Positions 149 to 9,350 of a stretch of DNA of 33,118 nt are shown one piece after another. The notes under the pieces are model-generated. The model was not told where the DNA came from and made no database searches. It worked only from the letters and a program-made list of their open reading frames with translations. The translations under genes and the position numbers were made by a program. The stretch is from Mariniblastus sp. GTDB taxonomy: Bacteria > Planctomycetota > Planctomycetia > Pirellulales > Pirellulaceae. Numbering within the stretch: position 1 is the stretch's first letter; each line of letters starts with the position of its first letter. The stretch is taken from positions 1 through 33,118 of the forward strand of contig JALZWN010000043.1 in assembly GCA_023300235.1 (NCBI GenBank), read 5' to 3'.

Positions 149-1408
149 CTAACTTTTTTGCCTTTTCAGTGCCGAACGCTGATGACCGACCAACCCTTCC
201 AACTCCGCCAATCGGGCGGTATCGTCAACCAACGCCTGCGGAGCCGCATCCAGCTTCAGCCAAGTCCGCACACGAACGAACGTAAACACATTCAAACCCG
301 CACTAAAACGTGCGCTTCCAGCAGTTGGCAGCGTATGATTCGGGCCGACGCCGTAGTCGCCAAACACTTCGGCCGATTGGTGGCCGATAAACAGACAACC
401 CGCATTAACGACTTTATCAGCAACCGCTTGAGCATCGTTACAGTGCAACTCTAGGTGCTCGGGAGCCAACGCATTACATGTCGCGATGACTTGATCGACC
501 GACTCGCACAACACTGCGGCTCCGTTTGCTAGTGCCACTTTGGCTGTCGCCGCGGTTGGCAAAACACCTAACTGCTTGTCCAATTCAGCTTCTACTTTTC
601 CAATTAACGGGGCATCGGTCGTCACCAAAAACGCCCGAGCATCCTCATCGTGCTCGGCTTGGGCCAACAAATCAGCCGCCACTGTCGCCGGATCAGATGA
701 CTGATCACCGACCAGCACCAACTCCGAAGGCCCAGCCAGCATATCAATGCCGCAGTCGCCCGAGACAATTTTTTTCGCCGCAGTCACCCAACGGTTCCCT
801 GGACCAACGATCACGTCACAGCGATCAAAGCCTTCAAAACCGTAAGCCATCGCGGCAACCGCCTGAGCCCCCCCAACGGCCAACACGCGATCGGCGCCCG
901 CCACTGCCGCAGCGGCCAACATTAAATCACTCGTCCCCGGCGTCGCCAACACTACTTGTCCACAACCAGCCACCACCGCGGGAACCACCGTCATGATCAC
1001 CGTTGACGGCAACGCATACCGCCCCGCCGGCGCGTAACATCCGGCTCGCTCTACCGGAACGATCGAATGCCCCGCCTTACCACCGGGAACATCCATTTCC
1101 AATTCTGACAAAGCGTCCAGCTGAGCTTGAGCAAAATCACGCACGCGATCGGCAACTCGTTCCAGCAGCGCCAAGTCATCCGCGTCCAACCGTGCCTTGG
1201 CCGCGTCCAACGCATCACGTTCGATCAACAACGGTTGTCCATCGGCGCGCCCATCGAACTTTTTCGCGTAATCAATCAACGCATCGCGTCCGCCCTCGCG
1301 CACGCCGTTCACGATCGACTCGGCAGCCGTCAACGTCGCCTCATCTAAAGGCTTTGGAGCGGCGTCAGGTCGAAAGTCGCTGGCCTTAATGGTTTTCAAC
1401 AAAGTCAT
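149..1408 (-). CDS. hisD: Histidinol dehydrogenase HisD
   Basis: Catalyses the last two steps of histidine synthesis, the NAD-dependent oxidation of L-histidinol to L-histidine, in the cytosol. The 419-residue product is the usual length for the family. Expected zinc ligands are visible as Q250 and H253 (in LLAQAEHDED), D351 (in FGDYGVGPNHTLPT) and H409 near the C-terminus. The catalytic Glu-His pair is E317/H318 (APEHLEL), and the GPSELVLVGD segment is also present. The ATG overlaps the stop of the upstream hisIE gene in an ATGA, so the two are translationally coupled. It is the last gene of the his operon. No convincing terminator was seen between its stop and the window edge (positions 1-148). 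Identification is secure. Confidence 0.97.
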   Translation of the reverse strand: MTLLKTIKASDFRPDAAPKPLDEATLTAAESIVNGVREGGRDALIDYAKKFDGRADGQPLLIERDALDAAKARLDADDLALLERVADRVRDFAQAQLDALSELEMDVPGGKAGHSIVPVERAGCYAPAGRYALPSTVIMTVVPAVVAGCGQVVLATPGTSDLMLAAAAVAGADRVLAVGGAQAVAAMAYGFEGFDRCDVIVGPGNRWVTAAKKIVSGDCGIDMLAGPSELVLVGDQSSDPATVAADLLAQAEHDEDARAFLVTTDAPLIGKVEAELDKQLGVLPTAATAKVALANGAAVLCESVDQVIATCNALAPEHLELHCNDAQAVADKVVNAGCLFIGHQSAEVFGDYGVGPNHTLPTAGSARFSAGLNVFTFVRVRTWLKLDAAPQALVDDTARLAELEGLVGHQRSALKRQKS

Positions 1409-2466
1409 TCTTTTTCCAACTTATTTTTGCGACGGACCACTCGGCTCATGCGTCGCGATAGTTCGTCATAGACTCGGTCCAACGTCACACCGTTTTTCAA
1501 CATCGCAACCAGGCTAAAGTACAACACGTCCGCGGCTTCCCAAGCGATCTCGTAATCGTCATCCGCTTGGCTGGCCTCGGACAACTCCTTAGCCTCTTCC
1601 AGCAACTTGGCCTCCAACATCGCCGCGTCATTGGCCAGCTTTCGCGTAAACGACTTCGGATCGTTATCATTAATCCGTTCGACCAACCGATGCATCACCG
1701 TTTGGATCGAACGATATTTGCCAAAGCAAGTGTACGATTTACGATGACAAAAACCGGGAGCCGCCTGGGTTACCCGAAACAGTAAACAATCGCGATCACA
1801 ATCAAAGCGAATCCCAAGCAATTGCTGAGTCGCACCGCTAGTCTCGCCTTTAATCCACAAACCGTCACGACTACGTGAGTAATACGTACCGACTCGATTT
1901 TCGATCGCATACGCCAGACTATCCGCATTCGAATAAGCCAAACCTAACGCGACGCCCAACGGATCCACAATCACCGTCGACCACAAACCGTCAGGACGAT
2001 CCGAAACTAACACTTGCTCAAAAAAGCTCGTAATCACGTCGTTGTTTTCGACCAAAAACTCGGCGTCGATCAAACAGTCAACCCGAGCCATTTCCAGTTC
2101 TGCGATTCGGTTTGACTGAGGATCGGTCATCCGAACAACATGATCCTTTGGGACCGCTTGATCTGGCGTGTCGATGTCCAAACACTGAACCGTCCGGTCG
2201 ACCGGGATCGTCTCGTAAGCCTCCGCGACCGCCGCATCACAAAGAATCAAAGAACCACCGACGTTCAGCAGCTTCAAGCAATCTTCTTCCGGCAGGTCAC
2301 CCGTTTCCAAAATCAAATCAACGCCGCCACCTGTTTTTTTGATCGTCGTTTCAAGCGTCGCAACGTGTTGGCTGCCGATGCCCAAAATCGCCAAGCGACC
2401 GAACAGGCTCCAGTCCTGAACTTTTTCCGGCGTGGCTTGGTCGGCAGTAAGAGTAGGAATAATCAT
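1405..2466 (-). CDS. hisIE: HIS4-like phosphoribosyl-AMP cyclohydrolase / phosphoribosyl-ATP pyrophosphatase with extra N-terminal domain
   Basis: Bifunctional enzyme of steps 2 and 3 of histidine synthesis. With the ATG at 2466 it has 353 residues. The first 160 or so form a domain not found in ordinary bacterial HisIE. HisI follows at about 163-255, with YYSRSRDGLW, the metal-binding DCDRD (222-226) and CHRKSYTCFGK (from 240). HisE follows at about 268-353, with EEAKEL and AWEAADVLYF. The architecture and motifs such as GTYYSRSRxGLWxKGETSG and SxxCFGK read like the fungal HIS4 protein, where HisD is fused behind HisE; here hisD is the next gene, overlapping by 4 bp. A longer reading from a GTG at 2535 would start inside a 50-bp palindrome. 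I prefer 2466 because the peptide then begins MIIPTL, like the start of HIS4. The role of the N-terminal domain is unknown to me. Confidence 0.93.
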   Translation of the reverse strand: MIIPTLTADQATPEKVQDWSLFGRLAILGIGSQHVATLETTIKKTGGGVDLILETGDLPEEDCLKLLNVGGSLILCDAAVAEAYETIPVDRTVQCLDIDTPDQAVPKDHVVRMTDPQSNRIAELEMARVDCLIDAEFLVENNDVITSFFEQVLVSDRPDGLWSTVIVDPLGVALGLAYSNADSLAYAIENRVGTYYSRSRDGLWIKGETSGATQQLLGIRFDCDRDCLLFRVTQAAPGFCHRKSYTCFGKYRSIQTVMHRLVERINDNDPKSFTRKLANDAAMLEAKLLEEAKELSEASQADDDYEIAWEAADVLYFSLVAMLKNGVTLDRVYDELSRRMSRVVRRKNKLEKE

Positions 2467-2523
2467 GATTGGTTTTCTTGTTTTAACTATGGCATCGACT
2501 TCCAGCCTTTGCTGTTTTTGAAA

Positions 2524-2573
2524 GTCGCCTTTCACTCCGTGAAAGAGCGCTCTTTCACGGAGTGAAAGGCGAC
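2524..2573. repeat. Perfect 50-bp palindrome between hisF and hisIE
   Basis: Two 25-base arms (2524-2548 and 2549-2573) are exact reverse complements with no loop, centred on GAGCGCTC. The arm sequence, with CGCCTTTCACTCCG, recurs in degenerate form at about 9440-9460 and 18138-18165, and as a fragment near 18330-18350, so it belongs to a dispersed repeat family. It sits in the 134-nt gap between hisF and hisIE. In RNA it would form a very stable hairpin, but no U-run follows on the minus strand, so it is not a typical intrinsic terminator. It may protect or punctuate the message. Confidence 0.9.
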
Positions 2574-2600: not shown

Positions 2601-3353
2601 TCAAATTCGGACGTGAACTCCGAGCCGATCCAATTCCTGTTTGACTTTCATCACCGTTGTATTCCCATCATGGAAAATCGACGCCGCCAGCACCGCATGC
2701 GCTCCGTGCTCGAACGCCTCGATCATGTGCGCCACCGAATCCGCGCCCCCTGAGGCAATCACGGGCAAGCTACAAGCCTCCGTCACCGCCGACAACATTG
2801 GCAAATCGTAACCGTCACGCGTTCCATCGCGATCAAAACTGGTCAGCAAAATCTCACCAGCACCCAACCGCTGAGCCGTCGCGGCCCACTCGACCGCGTT
2901 CAAGGATTCCGCTTCGGTGCCGCTTCGCGTCAACACTTGGAACTCGCCGTCGGTCGTTTTGGCATCGATCGCAACCACTGTACATTGAGCCCCAAACCTA
3001 GCCGCCATGTCGACGATCAAATCTGGATTCCGCACAGCCGCCGAATTAATCGAAACCTTGTCCGCCCCAGCGTTCAATAATCGCTCGGCGTCTTCGATCG
3101 TTTTGATACCACCGCCAACGGTCAACGGAATGCTCAACCGCTTACGAACTTTGTCGACCGTTTCCAGCATCGCGATGCGTTCTTGCCGAGTCGCCGTGAC
3201 GTCCAGCAAAACCAGTTCATCGGCGCCTTGTTCTTCGTAATGAAACGAAAGCTCAACCGGACAACCCGCGTCGCGCAAGTTTTGAAACTTCACGCCCTTG
3301 ACGACTCGACCGTCATTCACATCCAAACAAGGAATCACTCTTGATTTAAGCAT
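2601..3353 (-). CDS. hisF: Imidazole glycerol phosphate synthase, cyclase subunit HisF
   Basis: TIM-barrel subunit that joins ammonia from HisH with PRFAR to give imidazole glycerol phosphate and AICAR. The 250 residues match the usual length. Catalytic D11 (VIPCLDVNDGRVVKG) and D130 (VVAIDAK) are both present, as are the phosphate-binding loops TVGGGIKT (78-85) and VIASGG. The start overlaps the end of hisH by 8 bp, as expected for two subunits of one complex. It is clearly HisF and not HisA, as shown by the N-terminal motif and the VKGVKF segment. HisA is not found next to it, although in many bacteria it lies between hisH and hisF. Confidence 0.97.
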   Translation of the reverse strand: MLKSRVIPCLDVNDGRVVKGVKFQNLRDAGCPVELSFHYEEQGADELVLLDVTATRQERIAMLETVDKVRKRLSIPLTVGGGIKTIEDAERLLNAGADKVSINSAAVRNPDLIVDMAARFGAQCTVVAIDAKTTDGEFQVLTRSGTEAESLNAVEWAATAQRLGAGEILLTSFDRDGTRDGYDLPMLSAVTEACSLPVIASGGADSVAHMIEAFEHGAHAVLAASIFHDGNTTVMKVKQELDRLGVHVRI

Positions 3354-3969
3354 CCTGTTGCTCCTGAATTACATTACCAGCGACCCAGTTGGCCAGCACG
3401 CCTTGGCCCCATTCACCGGACAACTCTGGGTGAAACTGACACGCCAACGTTTTCCCTCGCCAAACACTGCTCACAAACGTGCCGCCGTACTCGGTTTCCG
3501 CGTAGCCCCAACCCTCGGGCGGAGTCGCGGTCAAACGAAACGAATTCGCGAAGTACGCCTCGCCGGCCGTGTAAGGTGCCGTCGATTGTTCTTTAGGTGT
3601 GACCGCGTTCCAGCCTAACTGCGGAACCGGCACGTCAGCATCAAAGCGTTTGATCGTCTCCGGAATCACCGACAGCCCAACCGCCGATTCGGCTTCTTCT
3701 GATGAATCGCAAAGCAACTGCATGCCCAAACAAATGCACAACGTCGATTTACTTGGATCCTGCAGACGCTGCTTCACCGCCTCCCGCAAACTCAGCCGAT
3801 CCAAACTCTCCGCCGCCGCCGCAAAGGCACCCACGCCCGGCAACACCACATGCGAAGCGGTTTCAATTTCGTTTGCATCTTCGGTCAAATCCCAAGCTTG
3901 ACCCAACCGATCGAACGCCGCTTGCAGCGATCGAATGTTGGCAACGCCGGTATTAATAATCTGTATCAT
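3346..3969 (-). CDS. hisH: Imidazole glycerol phosphate synthase, glutamine amidotransferase subunit HisH
   Basis: Class I glutaminase that supplies ammonia to HisF. It has 207 residues. The nucleophile is C80 (CICLGMQLL), and the His/Glu of the triad are H180 and E182 (CQFHPELSG). The oxyanion-region motif PGVGAF is at 44-49 and PQLGWN is near 116-121. A small deviation is that the segment usually read as YFxHSY in HisH is YFANSF here (139-144), so the conserved His is Asn. It abuts hisCB (stop of hisCB at 3970) and overlaps hisF by 8 bp, so it is co-transcribed. Confidence 0.96.
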   Translation of the reverse strand: MIQIINTGVANIRSLQAAFDRLGQAWDLTEDANEIETASHVVLPGVGAFAAAAESLDRLSLREAVKQRLQDPSKSTLCICLGMQLLCDSSEEAESAVGLSVIPETIKRFDADVPVPQLGWNAVTPKEQSTAPYTAGEAYFANSFRLTATPPEGWGYAETEYGGTFVSSVWRGKTLACQFHPELSGEWGQGVLANWVAGNVIQEQQDA

Positions 3970-5706
3970 TTACAAAACTCCCTTGGTGCTGGGCACATCG
4001 CCCTCGACTCGTGTCAGCGCCTGATTGAATGCTTTGGCCATCGACTTAAACGCCGCTTCAGCTCGGTGATGATCGTTCGCCCCTCGCAACACATCCACGT
4101 GCAAACTACAACGCAACGTCATCGCCAACGATTGGAAAAAGTGAGTGATGTTCTCACAAGCCCACTGGCCGACCATTTCGCGTTCCAAAGCCAAGTGAAT
4201 CTCAGGCCAAGGACGAGCACTCAAGTCAACAACCGTTCGAGCGAGCGCTTCATCCAGTGGAGCATAAGCGTAACCAAAACGCTTGATGCCTTTGCGAGGA
4301 CCAAGAGCTTCGTCGATCGCCTGGCCGAGTGCGATGGCACAGTCTTCGGCGGTGTGATGATCATCGACTTCCAAATCACCATCGCAGATCAGCTTCAAAT
4401 CAAAGCCAGCGTGAAACGCGAACGCGGTCAACATGTGATCCAAAAAACCAATGCCCGTCGAAATCTCGACTTTCGCATTACCGTCTAGGTTCAACTGCAG
4501 ATCGATTTTGGTTTCTTTGGTATCGCGTTTAATCGACGCCTGCCGAGTTACCCCTGCATCGCCGGGTTGTCGCGTGACAAGTTCACTCGGGTCAGGAGTC
4601 TCTTGATCGGCGACCAATTCAGCAGCGAACGCAACGCCCGCTGCCGCTTGGTGCAGTTCATAATCCGAATCGCAAACTTCACACAACGCTTTTGCTAACC
4701 GCAAATAATCCCCGACGGTTGCCGGACACGTGATTCGCAAAAATTTGGCGAGCACCGGTTTTCCCGCAAACTTGCGAACGCCGATCCCTGTTGCCGCCAA
4801 ACCATCCCACACCGCGTCGGCATCAGAAAATTCCGTCAATAAGTAGTTGCCGCCTGAGGGTATCGGTCGACCGCCACAAGCAGCCAACAGCTCAAACATC
4901 AGTCCCCGAATTTTTTTGATCCGAGCCACGCCTTCCACCATCAGCGGCTTGAATTGTTCCAGCGCCACCCGAGCAGTCTCGAGCGACACCGCGCTGACGG
5001 GGTAGGGCCCCGATGCGTTTCGGATCGCCGTCGCGAACTCGACGTCCGGCGCGATCATGAAACCAACTCGTAATCCCGCCAACCCCCACGCTTTGGAAAA
5101 CGTCCGCACGATCATGATGTTTTCGTCCGCCGTCAACTGCGCCGATGGATCTTCATCGGCGAATTCAACATAAGCGTGATCGACCAACAATTTCGCGCCA
5201 TTCTTTTTAGCTGCTTCGTTGATTTTAAAAATATCATCCAGCGAAACCATCGCCCCGGTTGGATTGTTCGGCGTGGTGACAACCACCAACGCCGTCGTTC
5301 CATCGATTCGGGCGATCAATTGGTCAACCGGGAAATCGCCCTCCAACCAAGGCTCGACATCCATCGATCCGTCATAGTTGTCGGTGTAGATCGAAACCAT
5401 CTCAAACGACGGTGCATGCGTGACCACCTTGCTTCGCGTTTCCGTGACAAGGTTACCGACGATGCGGTCGATCGAATCATCGCCGCCGGCAGTCACCACG
5501 ATTCGTCCAGCATCCACACCCACCCACGCCCCGATCAAATCTTGCAGGGCTTGATGAGACGGGTACTGCGAAACAAAACGAGAATCCAACTGACGCCAAT
5601 AGGCCGCCAAGTCCGGAATCACACATTGCGATTCGTTACCGCTAAGCCGCAAGTCGATTTCGTGTTTGAACGCTGGCGTTGAATAGGCTTGATTAATTTT
5701 TGCCAT
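3970..5706 (-). CDS. hisC-hisB: Fused histidinol-phosphate aminotransferase (HisC) and imidazoleglycerol-phosphate dehydratase (HisB)
   Basis: A 578-residue protein with two complete enzyme domains. Residues 1 to about 350 are a fold-type I PLP aminotransferase of the HisC family: TPNNPTG at 145-151, D176 and Y179 (DHAYVEF), the PLP lysine K205 in RTFSKAWGLAGLRVGF, and the substrate-binding arginine R325. After a linker of about 35 residues, about 385-578 are IGP dehydratase with GFLDHM (420-425), DDHHTAED (448-455) and NDHHRAEA (544-551), the metal-binding motifs of HisB. The enteric HisB fusion partner is a HAD phosphatase, which is absent here, so histidinol-phosphate phosphatase must be encoded elsewhere. 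No stop or frameshift lies between the domains. It lies 160 nt after hisG and abuts hisH. Confidence 0.95.
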   Translation of the reverse strand: MAKINQAYSTPAFKHEIDLRLSGNESQCVIPDLAAYWRQLDSRFVSQYPSHQALQDLIGAWVGVDAGRIVVTAGGDDSIDRIVGNLVTETRSKVVTHAPSFEMVSIYTDNYDGSMDVEPWLEGDFPVDQLIARIDGTTALVVVTTPNNPTGAMVSLDDIFKINEAAKKNGAKLLVDHAYVEFADEDPSAQLTADENIMIVRTFSKAWGLAGLRVGFMIAPDVEFATAIRNASGPYPVSAVSLETARVALEQFKPLMVEGVARIKKIRGLMFELLAACGGRPIPSGGNYLLTEFSDADAVWDGLAATGIGVRKFAGKPVLAKFLRITCPATVGDYLRLAKALCEVCDSDYELHQAAAGVAFAAELVADQETPDPSELVTRQPGDAGVTRQASIKRDTKETKIDLQLNLDGNAKVEISTGIGFLDHMLTAFAFHAGFDLKLICDGDLEVDDHHTAEDCAIALGQAIDEALGPRKGIKRFGYAYAPLDEALARTVVDLSARPWPEIHLALEREMVGQWACENITHFFQSLAMTLRCSLHVDVLRGANDHHRAEAAFKSMAKAFNQALTRVEGDVPSTKGVL

Positions 5707-5755
5707 GATTCGTTTCTAATTGGATTCCTGAGAATACTAGGATTCTTCTTTTCAT

Positions 5756-5785
5756 TGAATTTAGCCGCTTTGAATTTAGCCGCTT
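5756..5785. repeat. Short tandem duplication in the hisG-hisC gap
   Basis: A 15-bp unit (TGAATTTAGCCGCTT) is repeated exactly twice, back to back, in the 160-nt non-coding gap between hisG and the hisC-hisB gene. It looks like a recent slippage or duplication event and has no obvious regulatory meaning. Confidence 0.85.
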
Positions 5786-5866
5786 TGGCGATAGCCGCAG
5801 TTTTGCAGTACAACAACCGTAACAACGGCTAAACTTGCCAATGCTCGTTTTTACTTTCGAAAAAAC

Positions 5867-6742
5867 CTACGAAATCAATTGTTCAACCGTCGTTGTAACA
5901 ATCGAACTCGCTCCAGCGGCCTTCAACCGAGGAATTACGTCTGCCAATTCTTTCCTCGGGATCGCCGATCGAATCGCAAACCAGTCCGAATCCGACAGCG
6001 GCGAAACCGTCGGCCGTTGCAACGACGGCAACACAGCCAACACGGCGTCCAGATCCTTTTGCTGCACGTTCATGTCCATCATCACTCGGCTTCGAGCTTG
6101 CAGAACCGCGTCGATCAACAACACAAAGTCATCGATAACGGCCTTTCGCGCCGGATCAGCGACGGCTTCTTTAGAAGCGTACAGCCGAGTCGAACTGGTC
6201 ATGACGTCGTCGATGATCTGCAATCCGTTTGCTCGCAACGTCGATCCGGTCGCCGTGTTGTCGATAATGCAATCGGCATCTTCTGGCGGAAACACTTCGG
6301 TGGCTCCAAAGGTTTGTAAGATCTCCGCATCGATGCCATTCTTGGCAACCCACTGTTTTGCCAAAGCAGGGTATTCGGTCGCGATCACGATTTTGCGATT
6401 TGGCAGTTTGCCGTTTTCCAAAATTTCGATCGGAGCCGCCACGACCAACCGCACTGGGTTCAGCCGCGTGTCCAACAACTCCACCAGTTCGGTGCCAGTT
6501 TCCTGCACCCAATCTTCACCCGCGAAGCCCATATCGCGAGCACCAACTTTCAGCATTCCAATGACATCACGAGGCTTGAGCAGTTTCGTGCAATAATTGG
6601 GCAGCGAAATAACCGGCCGATAACCGCGCTCTGACTGTCGCACGGAAATCCCAGCGCCTTTTAGCAAACTGAGCACTTGATCGTACATTCGGCCTTTGGG
6701 CAACGCCAAGCGAATGCTGCAGGGTTCTCTATCTAATGACAT
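5867..6742 (-). CDS. hisG: ATP phosphoribosyltransferase HisG (long form)
   Basis: First and committed step of histidine synthesis, joining ATP and PRPP to give phosphoribosyl-ATP. At 291 residues it is the long (HisGL) form, with the extra C-terminal ACT-like domain (about 215-291) that binds histidine for feedback inhibition, so it does not need a HisZ partner. The N-terminal IRLALPKGRMYDQ and the PRPP-binding segment CIIDNTATGSTLRANG (from about 158) are clear. An AAGG ribosome binding site lies 5-6 nt before the ATG. It is the first structural gene of the operon and sits directly behind the attenuator terminator at 6772-6801, so its expression should depend on read-through of that terminator. 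Confidence 0.97.
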   Translation of the reverse strand: MSLDREPCSIRLALPKGRMYDQVLSLLKGAGISVRQSERGYRPVISLPNYCTKLLKPRDVIGMLKVGARDMGFAGEDWVQETGTELVELLDTRLNPVRLVVAAPIEILENGKLPNRKIVIATEYPALAKQWVAKNGIDAEILQTFGATEVFPPEDADCIIDNTATGSTLRANGLQIIDDVMTSSTRLYASKEAVADPARKAVIDDFVLLIDAVLQARSRVMMDMNVQQKDLDAVLAVLPSLQRPTVSPLSDSDWFAIRSAIPRKELADVIPRLKAAGASSIVTTTVEQLIS

Positions 6743-6771
6743 GGTGACCTTATAGTGTTTCTTATAACCAC

Positions 6772-6801
6772 AAAAAAACGCTGACCGAAGTGGCCAGCGT
6801 T
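6772..6801 (-). terminator. Attenuator terminator in front of hisG
   Basis: Read on the minus strand, AACGCTGGCC and GGTCAGCGTT pair as a 10-bp stem (one G-U) around a 5-base loop, followed directly by a run of seven T (6778-6772). It is a textbook intrinsic terminator, but it lies upstream of hisG by 29 nt and downstream of a His-rich leader peptide, which is the layout of a his attenuator. An alternative pairing is visible: bases 6836-6826 can pair with 6798-6790, which is the left arm of the terminator, giving a possible antiterminator. Confidence 0.92.
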
Positions 6802-6818
6802 CTATTATGTATCAATAC

Positions 6819-6890
6819 ATTTTCAGCTAAGTCCACGACCGATTAACGGTAAAAGTGGTGCAAGTGATGCGAGTTGTTGGAGCTGAAAAT
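6819..6890 (-). promoter_or_regulatory. Long-range 10-base pairing of the his leader RNA
   Basis: ATTTTCAGCT at 6890-6881, inside codons 2-5 of the leader peptide, is exactly complementary to AGCTGAAAAT at 6828-6819, which follows the leader stop codon. This is the position of the 1:2 pairing in classical attenuators. Part of the second segment (6828-6826) is shared with the putative antiterminator, so the two structures exclude one another. A ribosome stalled on the His codons would cover the first segment. The pairing is seen directly; the switching mechanism is inferred. Confidence 0.75.
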
Positions 6891-6893
6891 CAT
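6843..6893 (-). CDS. hisL: His leader peptide (HisL-like, 16 residues)
   Basis: ATG to TAA encodes MIFSSNNSHHLHHFYR. Four of 16 residues are histidine, in the block HHLHH, the composition expected of a ribosome-stalling leader that senses charged tRNA-His. The known enterobacterial HisL has seven consecutive His. The ORF ends 41 nt before the start of the terminator stem (6801), and hisG begins 100 nt after the leader stop. No Shine-Dalgarno sequence is evident. The predicted promoter places the transcription start at or within a base or two of this ATG, so it may be translated from a leaderless message. The gene name is given by function; sequence homology to enterobacterial HisL is not claimed. 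Confidence 0.88.
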   Translation of the reverse strand: MIFSSNNSHHLHHFYR

Positions 6894-6899
6894 GGCAGT

Positions 6900-6927
6900 A
6901 TCTTAAACTTGACAAACCCGATGTCAA
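6900..6927 (-). promoter_or_regulatory. Predicted sigma-70-type promoter of the his operon
   Basis: On the minus strand a perfect -35 TTGACA (6927-6922) is followed after 16 nt by a -10 TAAGAT (6905-6900). The expected start of transcription, 6-8 nt further on, coincides with the A of the leader-peptide ATG at 6893. The -35 is also the left half of an inverted repeat, TTGACA-7 nt-TGTCAA, that could be a repressor site or chance. Confidence 0.7.
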
Positions 6928-7355
6928 CGGCAAAAGCTGCATTTGCCCTCGGCCATTCCCAGCAATCTAGGCTACTCAGCCCCGCCTTGCGGGTTCTTCA
7001 AAACATGCAAACCGGGCAACTTAACCGGACAGTGGCTTTGCCAGCGATCATACCTGTGGACGATTTCACCAACCACGTCGCTCCATGAAAACCAGTGACT
7101 TGTTTTCCATTAGAAACGCAGACTTCAACTAGCCTCGGATTGACACAGATTTCCACCGATTCCATGGCGGTCTAACTTTCCATTCGCCCAATAAATGCCC
7201 TCTCCCCAAATCCCTCCAGGACCGATCAATCTAACTCATCTAGAAAAGTAACCGCAAACCCTCAATAATGCTCCTCCGACCATCATTTGCTTAGCTAATC
7301 AGCTTCCACCGCTTGCCAAGCATCCAAACTCCCCCAGCCGCTAAAGCCGTCAATC
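6928..7355. other. Non-coding gap between the his promoter and the helicase gene
   Basis: This is a 428-bp divergent intergenic region. Beyond the his promoter at its left edge I see only a small CCCGC/GCGGG hairpin near 6980-6995. No ORF has protein-like composition, and no repeat of the families found elsewhere in the window is present. The promoter of the helicase gene must lie here but no clear box was found. Confidence 0.6.
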
Positions 7356-9350
7356 GTGAAATCAACAGACATCCTCGGCAACGGCGGCCGCATCGCTCAG
7401 CGGCTCGAAAACTACGAAGAGCGTCAACAGCAACTTGACATGGCCGACGCCGTCGCCAAAGCCATCGCCGACAAAAAGCACTTGGTCGTCGAAGCCGGAA
7501 CCGGCGTTGGCAAAAGCTTCGGCTACCTCGTCCCCGCGATCCTGTCGCTGCAAGACTCGCAAGAAAAAGAAGACGGCGGCAAACGGCGGATCGTCGTCTC
7601 CACGCACACCATTAGTTTGCAAGAGCAACTGATCACTAAAGACATCCCGCTACTCAACAGCGTCATCCCGCTCGAGTTCTCAGCCGTACTCGCCAAAGGC
7701 CGCGGCAACTACCTGAGCCTCCGCAGACTCAACCGCGCGTTGCAAAACAGCGACAGCCTGCTGGAAACCGAAGACCAAATCCACCAACTCCGTGAAGTCG
7801 CCAAATGGTCCAAAACCACCACCGACGGATCACTCGCGGACTTGCCGATCAAAGTCAATCGAGAAGTCTGGGACCAAGCACGCAGCGACAGCGGCAATTG
7901 CTTGGGCCGCAAATGCCCGACCCATGGTGACTGCTTCTACTACGCCGCTCGCAAGCGCCTCCAAAACGCCGACATCTTGATCGTCAACCACGCCTTATTC
8001 TTTAGCGATCTTGGCCTGCGAAGAATGGGCGTGAACTTACTGCCCGACTACGACGTGGTGATTTTGGACGAAGCCCACACCGTTCAAGACGTCGCCAGCG
8101 ACCACCTTGGACTCGGCCTGACCATGGGCCAGATCGAATACAACCTGAACAAACTGTACAACCAAGGCACCAATAAAGGCCTGTTCGTGCAACACGAATT
8201 CGCCAAAGGACAAAAGGCGGTGTTAGTCGCCTACAACGCCAGCGAAGATTTCTTTTCGGAGATCACCGGCTGGGTCGTCAACAATTCAAAAGACAACCAA
8301 CGCAAAAGCCAAACCGTTCGCGTCCCCAAACCCTACATCGTCGAAAACCAACTCTCGCCGCACCTAAGCAACATCGCCAACATGGTGCGTCAATTCGCCG
8401 AAGACAAACAAAACCCGTCCGAAAAACAAGACCTGGTCTCCAGCGCCGAACGGCTTGAAACCATCGCACTCGAAATCGAACAGTGGCGGACACAAGACAT
8501 CCAAGACGGCGTGTTCTGGGTGGAATCGAGCATGAATCGGTGGGGGAAACAACAGGTCAAACTTTGCGCCTCGCCGATCGACATCGGCCCAGTAATGCGT
8601 CAAGAACTATTCAACAAAACCGACACCGTTGTTTTGGCCAGTGCCACATTAGCCGTCGGCGGGCAGTCGTTTGATTTCTTCCGCGAACGAATTGGTTTGA
8701 CTCAGTCGGAATCGGCCAAGCTCGGCAGCCCCTTTGACTATAAAAAACAAGCCAAACTGATCTTGGTCACCAACCTGGCTTGCCCGTCTAAAGACCGCGA
8801 TACCCACGAGCGACAAGCCATCGATGCGATTCGACACTACGTTCAGCAGACCGACGGCCGAGCGTTCGTGTTATTCACGAGCTACCAGTTTATGAACCGA
8901 GCCGTCCGCGAACTGACGTCATGGATGAGCTCGCAGAATCTGGCTCTCTATCAACAGGGGGTGGGAGTTTCTCGAACCCACCTGTTGGAGAAATTTAAAG
9001 CCAACCCCCGAGGCGTTTTATTTGGCACGGCGAGTTTCTGGCAAGGCGTGGATGTCCAAGGCGACGCATTACAAAACGTAATCATTCCCAAGCTTCCTTT
9101 CAGCGTCCCCGACCAACCGCTACTGCAAGCTCGTCTCGAAGCCATCCGCAAAGCCGGCGGTAAGCCCTTCAACGACTACCAGTTGCCCGAAGCGATCATC
9201 AAATTCAAGCAAGGCTTCGGTCGCTTAATCCGTAGTAAAACCGACACCGGACAAGTCGTTGTCCTTGACCCCCGAGTCACCACAAAAGCCTACGGCAAAA
9301 TCTTCATCGAGTCGCTGCCCGAATGCACCATCGTTCGAGAAACGATTTAA
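7356..9350 (+). CDS. DinG/XPD-type superfamily 2 DNA helicase
   Basis: ATP-dependent 5'-3' helicase of the DinG/YoaA/XPD group, probably acting on damaged or structured DNA. The 664 residues contain Walker [10 protein letters not shown] (46-54), DEAH (238-241), the helicase-C segment [13 protein letters not shown] and the final motif GFGRLIRS. Three of the iron-sulphur cysteines are seen at C182, C187 and C193 ([12 protein letters not shown]). The fourth, which in DinG usually follows GRxNYxC, is replaced by serine (S121 in [12 protein letters not shown]), and there is no other Cys in the first 181 residues. The start is a GTG; the next ATG (7440) would remove conserved residues before Walker A. 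It stands alone, transcribed away from the his operon. Confidence 0.9.

Follow-up and report, generated by a model that had tools for sequence, protein, structure and literature searches.

The minus strand of the window, by which we mean the whole stretch of 33,118 nucleotides that was analysed, carries a his operon in the order hisG-hisCB-hisH-hisF-hisIE-hisD, with all elements of a leader lying 5' of it: a promoter, a short open reading frame (ORF) with a run of histidine codons, and a terminator. The question raised by this locus is whether the operon is controlled by ribosome stalling on the leader, as had been proposed in an earlier reading made from the sequence alone (the sequence-only reading). 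The layout, together with the conservation of the codons, terminator and pairings in relatives, supports that proposal, and we put the probability at roughly 0.9 that the element is a ribosome-mediated (leader-peptide) transcription attenuator which senses charged tRNA-His and controls the his operon. The features concerned are as follows.

6922-6927, minus strand: −35 box TTGACA (window promoter scan; similar boxes lie 5' of most homologous leaders)
6900-6905, minus strand: −10 box TAAGAT, ending 6 nt before the leader ATG (promoter scan and spacing statistics)
6843-6893, minus strand: leader peptide ORF MIFSSNNSHHLHHFYR, 16 codons plus stop, probably leaderless (homologous His-rich leaders)
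6881-6890, minus strand: region 1, codons 2-5, ATTTTCAGCT (exact complement of 6828-6819; 1:2 pairing in relatives)
6819-6828, minus strand: partner of region 1, AGCTGAAAAT (exact reverse complement of 6890-6881; shares 6828-6826 with region 2)
6826-6836, minus strand: region 2, putative 5' strand of the antiterminator, GUGGACUUAGC, starting after a 6-nt gap behind the leader stop codon
6790-6798, minus strand: region 3, left arm of the terminator and putative alternative partner of region 2 (pairing and step-by-step model)
6772-6803, minus strand: intrinsic terminator (regions 3:4), a perfect hairpin at 6803-6775 with seven T at 6778-6772
5867-6742, minus strand: hisG, ATP phosphoribosyltransferase, long form (TIGR00070 and TIGR03455 above cut-off)
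3970-5706, minus strand: hisC-hisB fusion, 578 aa (aminotransferase and IGPD domains)
3346-3969, minus strand: hisH (TIGR01855)
2601-3353, minus strand: hisF (TIGR00735)
1405-2535, minus strand: hisIE with an N-terminal extension of about 180 aa, family unassigned (domain searches)
149-1408, minus strand: hisD (TIGR00069)

Among the operon ORFs scanned, hisA was not recognised, and the N-terminal ~180 residues of HisIE gave no Pfam match up to E = 5. Judged by length only, hisG is followed by an open frame of HisC-HisB-like length in loci L052, L054, L056, L060, L063 and L071, and by a shorter frame of 409 codons in L064 and L080.

The 16-codon His ORF described in the sequence-only reading lies at 6893-6843, and that reading is correct to the base. 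Of the 358 ATG ORFs of 10-40 codons on both strands of the window, this is the only one with at least four His within six codons. The 10-base pairing claimed in that reading between 6890-6881 and 6828-6819 is indeed an exact reverse complement, and an exact pairing of at least 10 bp between the ORF and the downstream sequence arises in 1 of 1000 dinucleotide shuffles. As also described there, 6836-6826 (GTGGACTTAGC) is able to pair with 6798-6790 (GCTGGCCAC), an antiterminator pairing that uses the left arm of the terminator, and the perfect terminator with its seven T lies just before hisG (start at 6742). Folding of the leader RNA, which the same reading had recommended, places the complete leader 6.6 standard deviations below shuffles (z −6.6), with 0 of 200 shuffles equally good. 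By duplex energy alone, the window's own pairings are not significant (p = 0.145 for 2:3 and p = 0.155 for 1:2), and the support for them comes from the relatives.

In the proposed mechanism, RNA polymerase would start at or beside the leader ATG, and a ribosome would probably load straight onto the leaderless message. When charged tRNA-His is scarce, the ribosome would stall on the His codons, disturbing region 1 and freeing region 2, which could then pair with the emerging left arm of the terminator (region 3) and let the polymerase continue into hisG. With ample histidine, the ribosome would get as far as the stop codon and cover region 2, and the terminator (3:4) would form. Without translation, the 1:2 pairing would occupy region 2, and termination would be the default.

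The competing structures were analysed in a set of leaders from the window and its relatives, in which 90 candidates, less four judged spurious (L042, L065, L066 and L072) and 13 second copies (from the same or a near-identical contig), leave 73 distinct leaders; L126, which has a His-rich ORF missed by the candidate picking, is counted as lacking a leader. An alignment of the genus leaders was read by eye and feeds no count. A terminator is present in 72 of the 73 (L096 is the sole leader without a detected one), the terminators having been chosen automatically, with a few picks that include spurious outer pairs and one, in L081, that is probably the wrong hairpin. The 2:3 antiterminator pairing beats dinucleotide shuffles at p ≤ 0.05 in 44 of 72 distinct loci (median z −2.0), where 3.6 significant loci would be expected by chance. 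The 1:2 pairing, between the first part of the ORF and region 2, reaches p ≤ 0.05 in 30/72. Region 2 itself moves: within the genus it mostly follows the stop codon, and in many loci outside the genus it coincides with the last ORF codons, as in L076, where GGCCGGCG pairs with CGCCGGCC. Both sides of the 2:3 pairing vary between loci, for example GTGGaCGG with CCGaCCAC in L016, L017 and L019, and GGTCGGCG with CGCCGACC in L069, covariation being judged from such examples of two-sided change. Exchanging partners between loci discriminates weakly, in that a foreign region 2 binds equally well in a median 25% of cases and the native region 2 falls in the best tenth for only 14 of 72 loci, probably because the terminator arms are alike.

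The effect of the ribosome's position was followed in a simple step-by-step model of the emerging RNA. With the ribosome stalled on the His run, 70 of 72 loci have at least five bases of the left arm paired to upstream sequence before the right arm has been transcribed (in the window, nine bases at −9.3 kcal/mol), compared with 30 of 72 when the ribosome sits at the stop codon. At equilibrium, the complete leader contains the terminator in 69/72 loci with the ribosome at the stop, and the terminator is still in the minimum-energy structure of 48/72, the window included, with the ribosome stalled. This preference for the terminator despite a stalled ribosome means that read-through would have to be kinetic. 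Attenuator decisions are usually kinetic. A short ORF rich in cognate codons and an intrinsic terminator before the first gene are both present, and for the relatives' set we predict an antiterminator that draws on the terminator's left arm and is kept from forming by a ribosome on the stop codon. By these sequence-testable features, the element is of the leader-peptide attenuator kind.

The promoter of the window, TTGACA-16-TAAGAT, matches the consensus and lies directly 5' of the leader ORF. With 6 nt between its −10 box and the ATG, transcription is expected to start at or beside the A of this codon, and we predict a start at or next to 6893, whereas the sequence-only reading had named a start downstream of 6801 as an observation that would speak against attenuation. 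In 64 of the 73 distinct leaders, the −10 box of the best sigma-70-like site within 100 nt upstream is separated from the start codon by 5-10 nt, compared with 9.7% of shuffled upstream regions, suggesting that the leader ORF is probably leaderless. Because start codons were picked partly by promoter score, the count was repeated on leaders with one possible ATG only, of which 44/52 show the same spacing; so do 11 of 14 leaders in a later-fetched set, a few of which resemble earlier ones. These numbers bear on an alternative in which attenuation is ribosome-mediated but the message has a normal 5' UTR, with transcription starting further upstream and the boxes adjacent to the ATG not being a promoter. 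The promoters are inferred from the sigma-70 consensus only, the best one falls outside 5-10 nt in 9 of 73 leaders and in 3 of 14 of the later set, and a Shine-Dalgarno-like 4-mer occurs upstream of 8 of the 73, all of which would suit such a message. However, the excess over shuffles at 5-10 nt and the 65 of 73 leaders lacking a Shine-Dalgarno-like 4-mer argue against it, and we consider a conventional 5' UTR improbable. The description of this attenuator as classical in the sequence-only reading therefore holds for the layout, but not for the leader ORF, which is probably leaderless.

The closest named relatives of the window (HisG 62-72% identical) are Mariniblastus, Pirellulaceae, Planctomycetaceae or Planctomycetota by title, so that the planctomycete setting stated earlier was right. 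A HisG match was found in 24 of 28 genomes of the window's genus. A His leader with terminator precedes hisG in all 19 genus genomes with the window's HisG type (window included) and in none of the five that carry another HisG. The two types of this one genus are well separated in identity to the window's HisG (65-72% for L002-L020, 30-33% for L021-L025). The presence of quite different HisG types within the genus suggests, from these sequences, that hisG was replaced together with its attenuator.

The same relation to HisG holds further out, in several sets that overlap in part. In the family sample, 6 of 7 fetched loci with 45-65% HisG identity have the leader (L026 does not), compared with 0 of 18 at 36-40%, where a match in L042 was judged spurious. 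Among named relatives, the leader is found in 38 of 47 loci, 17 of the 38 being titled Phycisphaerae or a lower rank; in this set, 13 are further copies of loci counted elsewhere, and three further matches were judged spurious. A phylum sample of 392 evenly chosen genomes gave 154 HisG matches at E ≤ 1e-40, of which 30 were given loci; the leader is present in 22/27 loci at 46-58% identity and in 1/2 at 40-42%. From the other 124 matches (32-40% identity), 40 loci were picked by hand, and a His leader was found in one, L172, with two of the 40 regions being cut short at a contig end (L158, 300 bases; L161, 497 bases). In total, the leader was seen in about 6% of the 392 genomes (window aside), and so not in most planctomycetes. 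The later-fetched set, collected around one sample genome, has the leader in 14 of 17 new loci at 45-56% identity (of the three without, L296 begins at a contig end) and in 0 of 4 at 36-37%; this set was counted for leaders and promoter spacing and is partly dependent on the others, as L282 and L284 resemble L064/L092 and L286 resembles L068. Placed on a HisG tree with 111 rows, the leader is carried by 72 of the 88 members of a single clade and by 0 of the 23 rows outside it, in a topology that is midpoint-rooted, has several long branches and whose bootstrap is not fully settled. The sequence-only reading had regarded a lack of conservation in close relatives as decisive against itself; the His codons, terminator and competing pairings are all kept.

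Two further observations concern single His leaders. In L172, a distant HisG (34% identity) is preceded by a His-rich leader with a terminator-like hairpin, which may have arisen independently. Similar His leaders also occur in metagenome-assembled contigs titled Euryarchaeota, Spirochaetes, Bacteroidetes, Armatimonadetes, Myxococcales and Zixiibacteriota (loci L070, L081, L082, L084, L089 and L097), the assignments being title-based.

Outside the His run, the peptide sequence differs widely among clades. This variation weighs against the idea that the leader RNA or peptide, once released, has an additional function in trans, in the manner of Sinorhizobium peTrpL/rnTrpL, and no result of the analysis hints at a trans target. 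A parallel does exist in the S. meliloti trpL attenuator RNA, for which trans roles are reported and which likewise starts with a leaderless ORF (PMC7298713, in the portion available to us), but we regard an additional trans function here as very improbable.

The recurrence of the leader also bears on a reading without any attenuation, in which an ordinary intrinsic terminator happens to lie beside a chance His-rich ORF and hisG is transcribed from a separate promoter located downstream of 6801. Taken by itself, the hairpin with its seven T does make a good terminator. However, leader, terminator and promoter spacing recur jointly before hisG in many genera, and a scan of 5600-7360 gave nothing promoter-like on the minus strand in the interval from the terminator to hisG. 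Moreover, the first large gene upstream (7356-9350) is transcribed in the opposite direction, leaving no obvious upstream transcript for such a terminator to end. Coincidence is thus hardly credible as an explanation. Nor do we give more than a very slight chance to a histidine-sensing T-box or a repressor protein controlling the operon, with the ORF incidental: T-boxes and HisR do control his genes in other phyla (PMC9413887, in the text at hand), but the window has no T-box at the Rfam threshold, none is among the nine matches of the leader up to E = 10, and neither device accounts for leaders with 3-9 His codons.

Leaders for other amino acids were sought as well. A strict pattern for leaderless leaders has three matches in the window's own genome, one of which is the his leader. 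A looser pattern gives 46 matches in three genus genomes vs. 52 in a reversed control, and no second amino-acid-rich leader before a terminator was seen among the 30 of these 46 that were inspected (the window's his leader aside). In the regions upstream of leuA and ilvB, surveyed in 15 genomes, the three genus genomes have no leader, and two Leu-rich ORFs were found in one non-genus genome; they lie in tandem 5' of leuA in L231, and behind each comes a hairpin that resembles a terminator and has a T run. Before trpE, short ORFs with Trp runs (e.g., RGWWWRW and SGWWWRW) occur in six genomes from a single Phycisphaerae-related family (L206-L210 and L255, with L256 and L258 as second copies). 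These ORFs have −10-like boxes 6-7 nt before the ATG, and their terminators are mostly indistinct by eye.

Taken as a whole, it is likely, though less firmly so than the attenuator reading of the window itself, that a his attenuator lineage with leaderless leader peptides exists in at least two Planctomycetota classes (Pirellulaceae, Phycisphaerae) and is tied to one HisG lineage, with leaderless Trp leaders before trpE in the six genomes in addition. Leader-peptide attenuation requires coupled transcription and translation, and the cell plan of Planctomycetota has long been debated. If the attenuator works as proposed, the ribosome follows the polymerase closely in this phylum. If the leader is leaderless, the ribosome must load on a bare 5' AUG as it leaves the polymerase, so that initiation would be tightly coupled to transcription, and the leader would be a natural system in which to study ribosome loading on bare 5' AUGs. 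The element is also a candidate for a new RNA family and for a histidine-tunable switch in planctomycete genetics.

The sequence-only reading was aware of no description in planctomycetes, and we likewise found none of a his attenuator in Planctomycetota among the open-access papers listed on planctomycete or Phycisphaerae attenuation, leader peptides and leaderless ORFs, a body of text outside which lie most subscription papers and the survey of Lopatovskaya and others (2010). The portion of PMC4833913 at our disposal reports a peak in leader-gene distances in Planctomycetes and names no his attenuator there. According to excerpts of PMC2965389 (2010), leader-peptide systems had until then been shown only in Proteobacteria and Actinobacteria, to which that study adds Firmicutes, and excerpts of PMC9413887 add Firmicutes his attenuators. 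His leader attenuation, described mainly in proteobacteria according to the sequence-only reading, is not confined to them and is reported in Firmicutes too (same excerpts). The mechanism is known, and is apparently undescribed in Planctomycetota.

How does the element compare with known systems? The Rfam model RF00514 scores 131.6 bits on E. coli (positive control); it is below threshold in the window and in eight relatives' loci, and with the limit relaxed to E = 10 it still has no match in the window leader. Searched against Rfam to E = 10, this leader has Thr_leader as its best cis-regulatory match, at 18.8 bits vs. a threshold of 55. By its sequence, the window leader is not in the Rfam His_leader family. 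T-box riboswitches share the task, controlling his operons in Firmicutes and Actinobacteria (PMC9413887, from an excerpt), and one has been proposed for the his genes of Corynebacterium (PMC3896937, also from an excerpt); however, they have no leader peptide, and the window gives no T-box match. Closer in kind are the his attenuators of Firmicutes, with 3-5 His codons and with terminator and antiterminator hairpins before his genes (PMC9413887, as excerpted), and the His leaders before hisZ and a hisS paralogue in the same phylum (PMC2965389, as excerpted). They belong to another phylum and are likened to the window by description only.

With respect to the start of the message, the nearest parallels are Sinorhizobium meliloti trpL (PMC7298713) and Streptomyces lividans leuL and trpL (PMC8079986), in which, as far as the available text of these papers goes, the leader ORF of the attenuator begins at the RNA 5' end. 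Streptomyces LeuL1 differs in having no typical terminator (PMC8079986, same text). These systems concern other amino acids and other phyla, and are likened by description only. The hisL of E. coli and Salmonella (RF00514, His_leader) shares with the window a His-codon ORF and a terminator-like hairpin before hisG (E. coli K-12 sequence). E. coli hisL is leadered. Its −10-like TAGGTT, placed by eye, ends 38 nt before the ATG, compared with about 6 nt in the window, and the promoter scan at 9 of 12 matches gives no site at TAGGTT. Competing hairpins are likewise common to the window and the his attenuator of E. coli and Salmonella (PMC3896937 and PMC9413887, in the portions available). It is the leaderless start that probably separates the planctomycete attenuator from the E. 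coli type.
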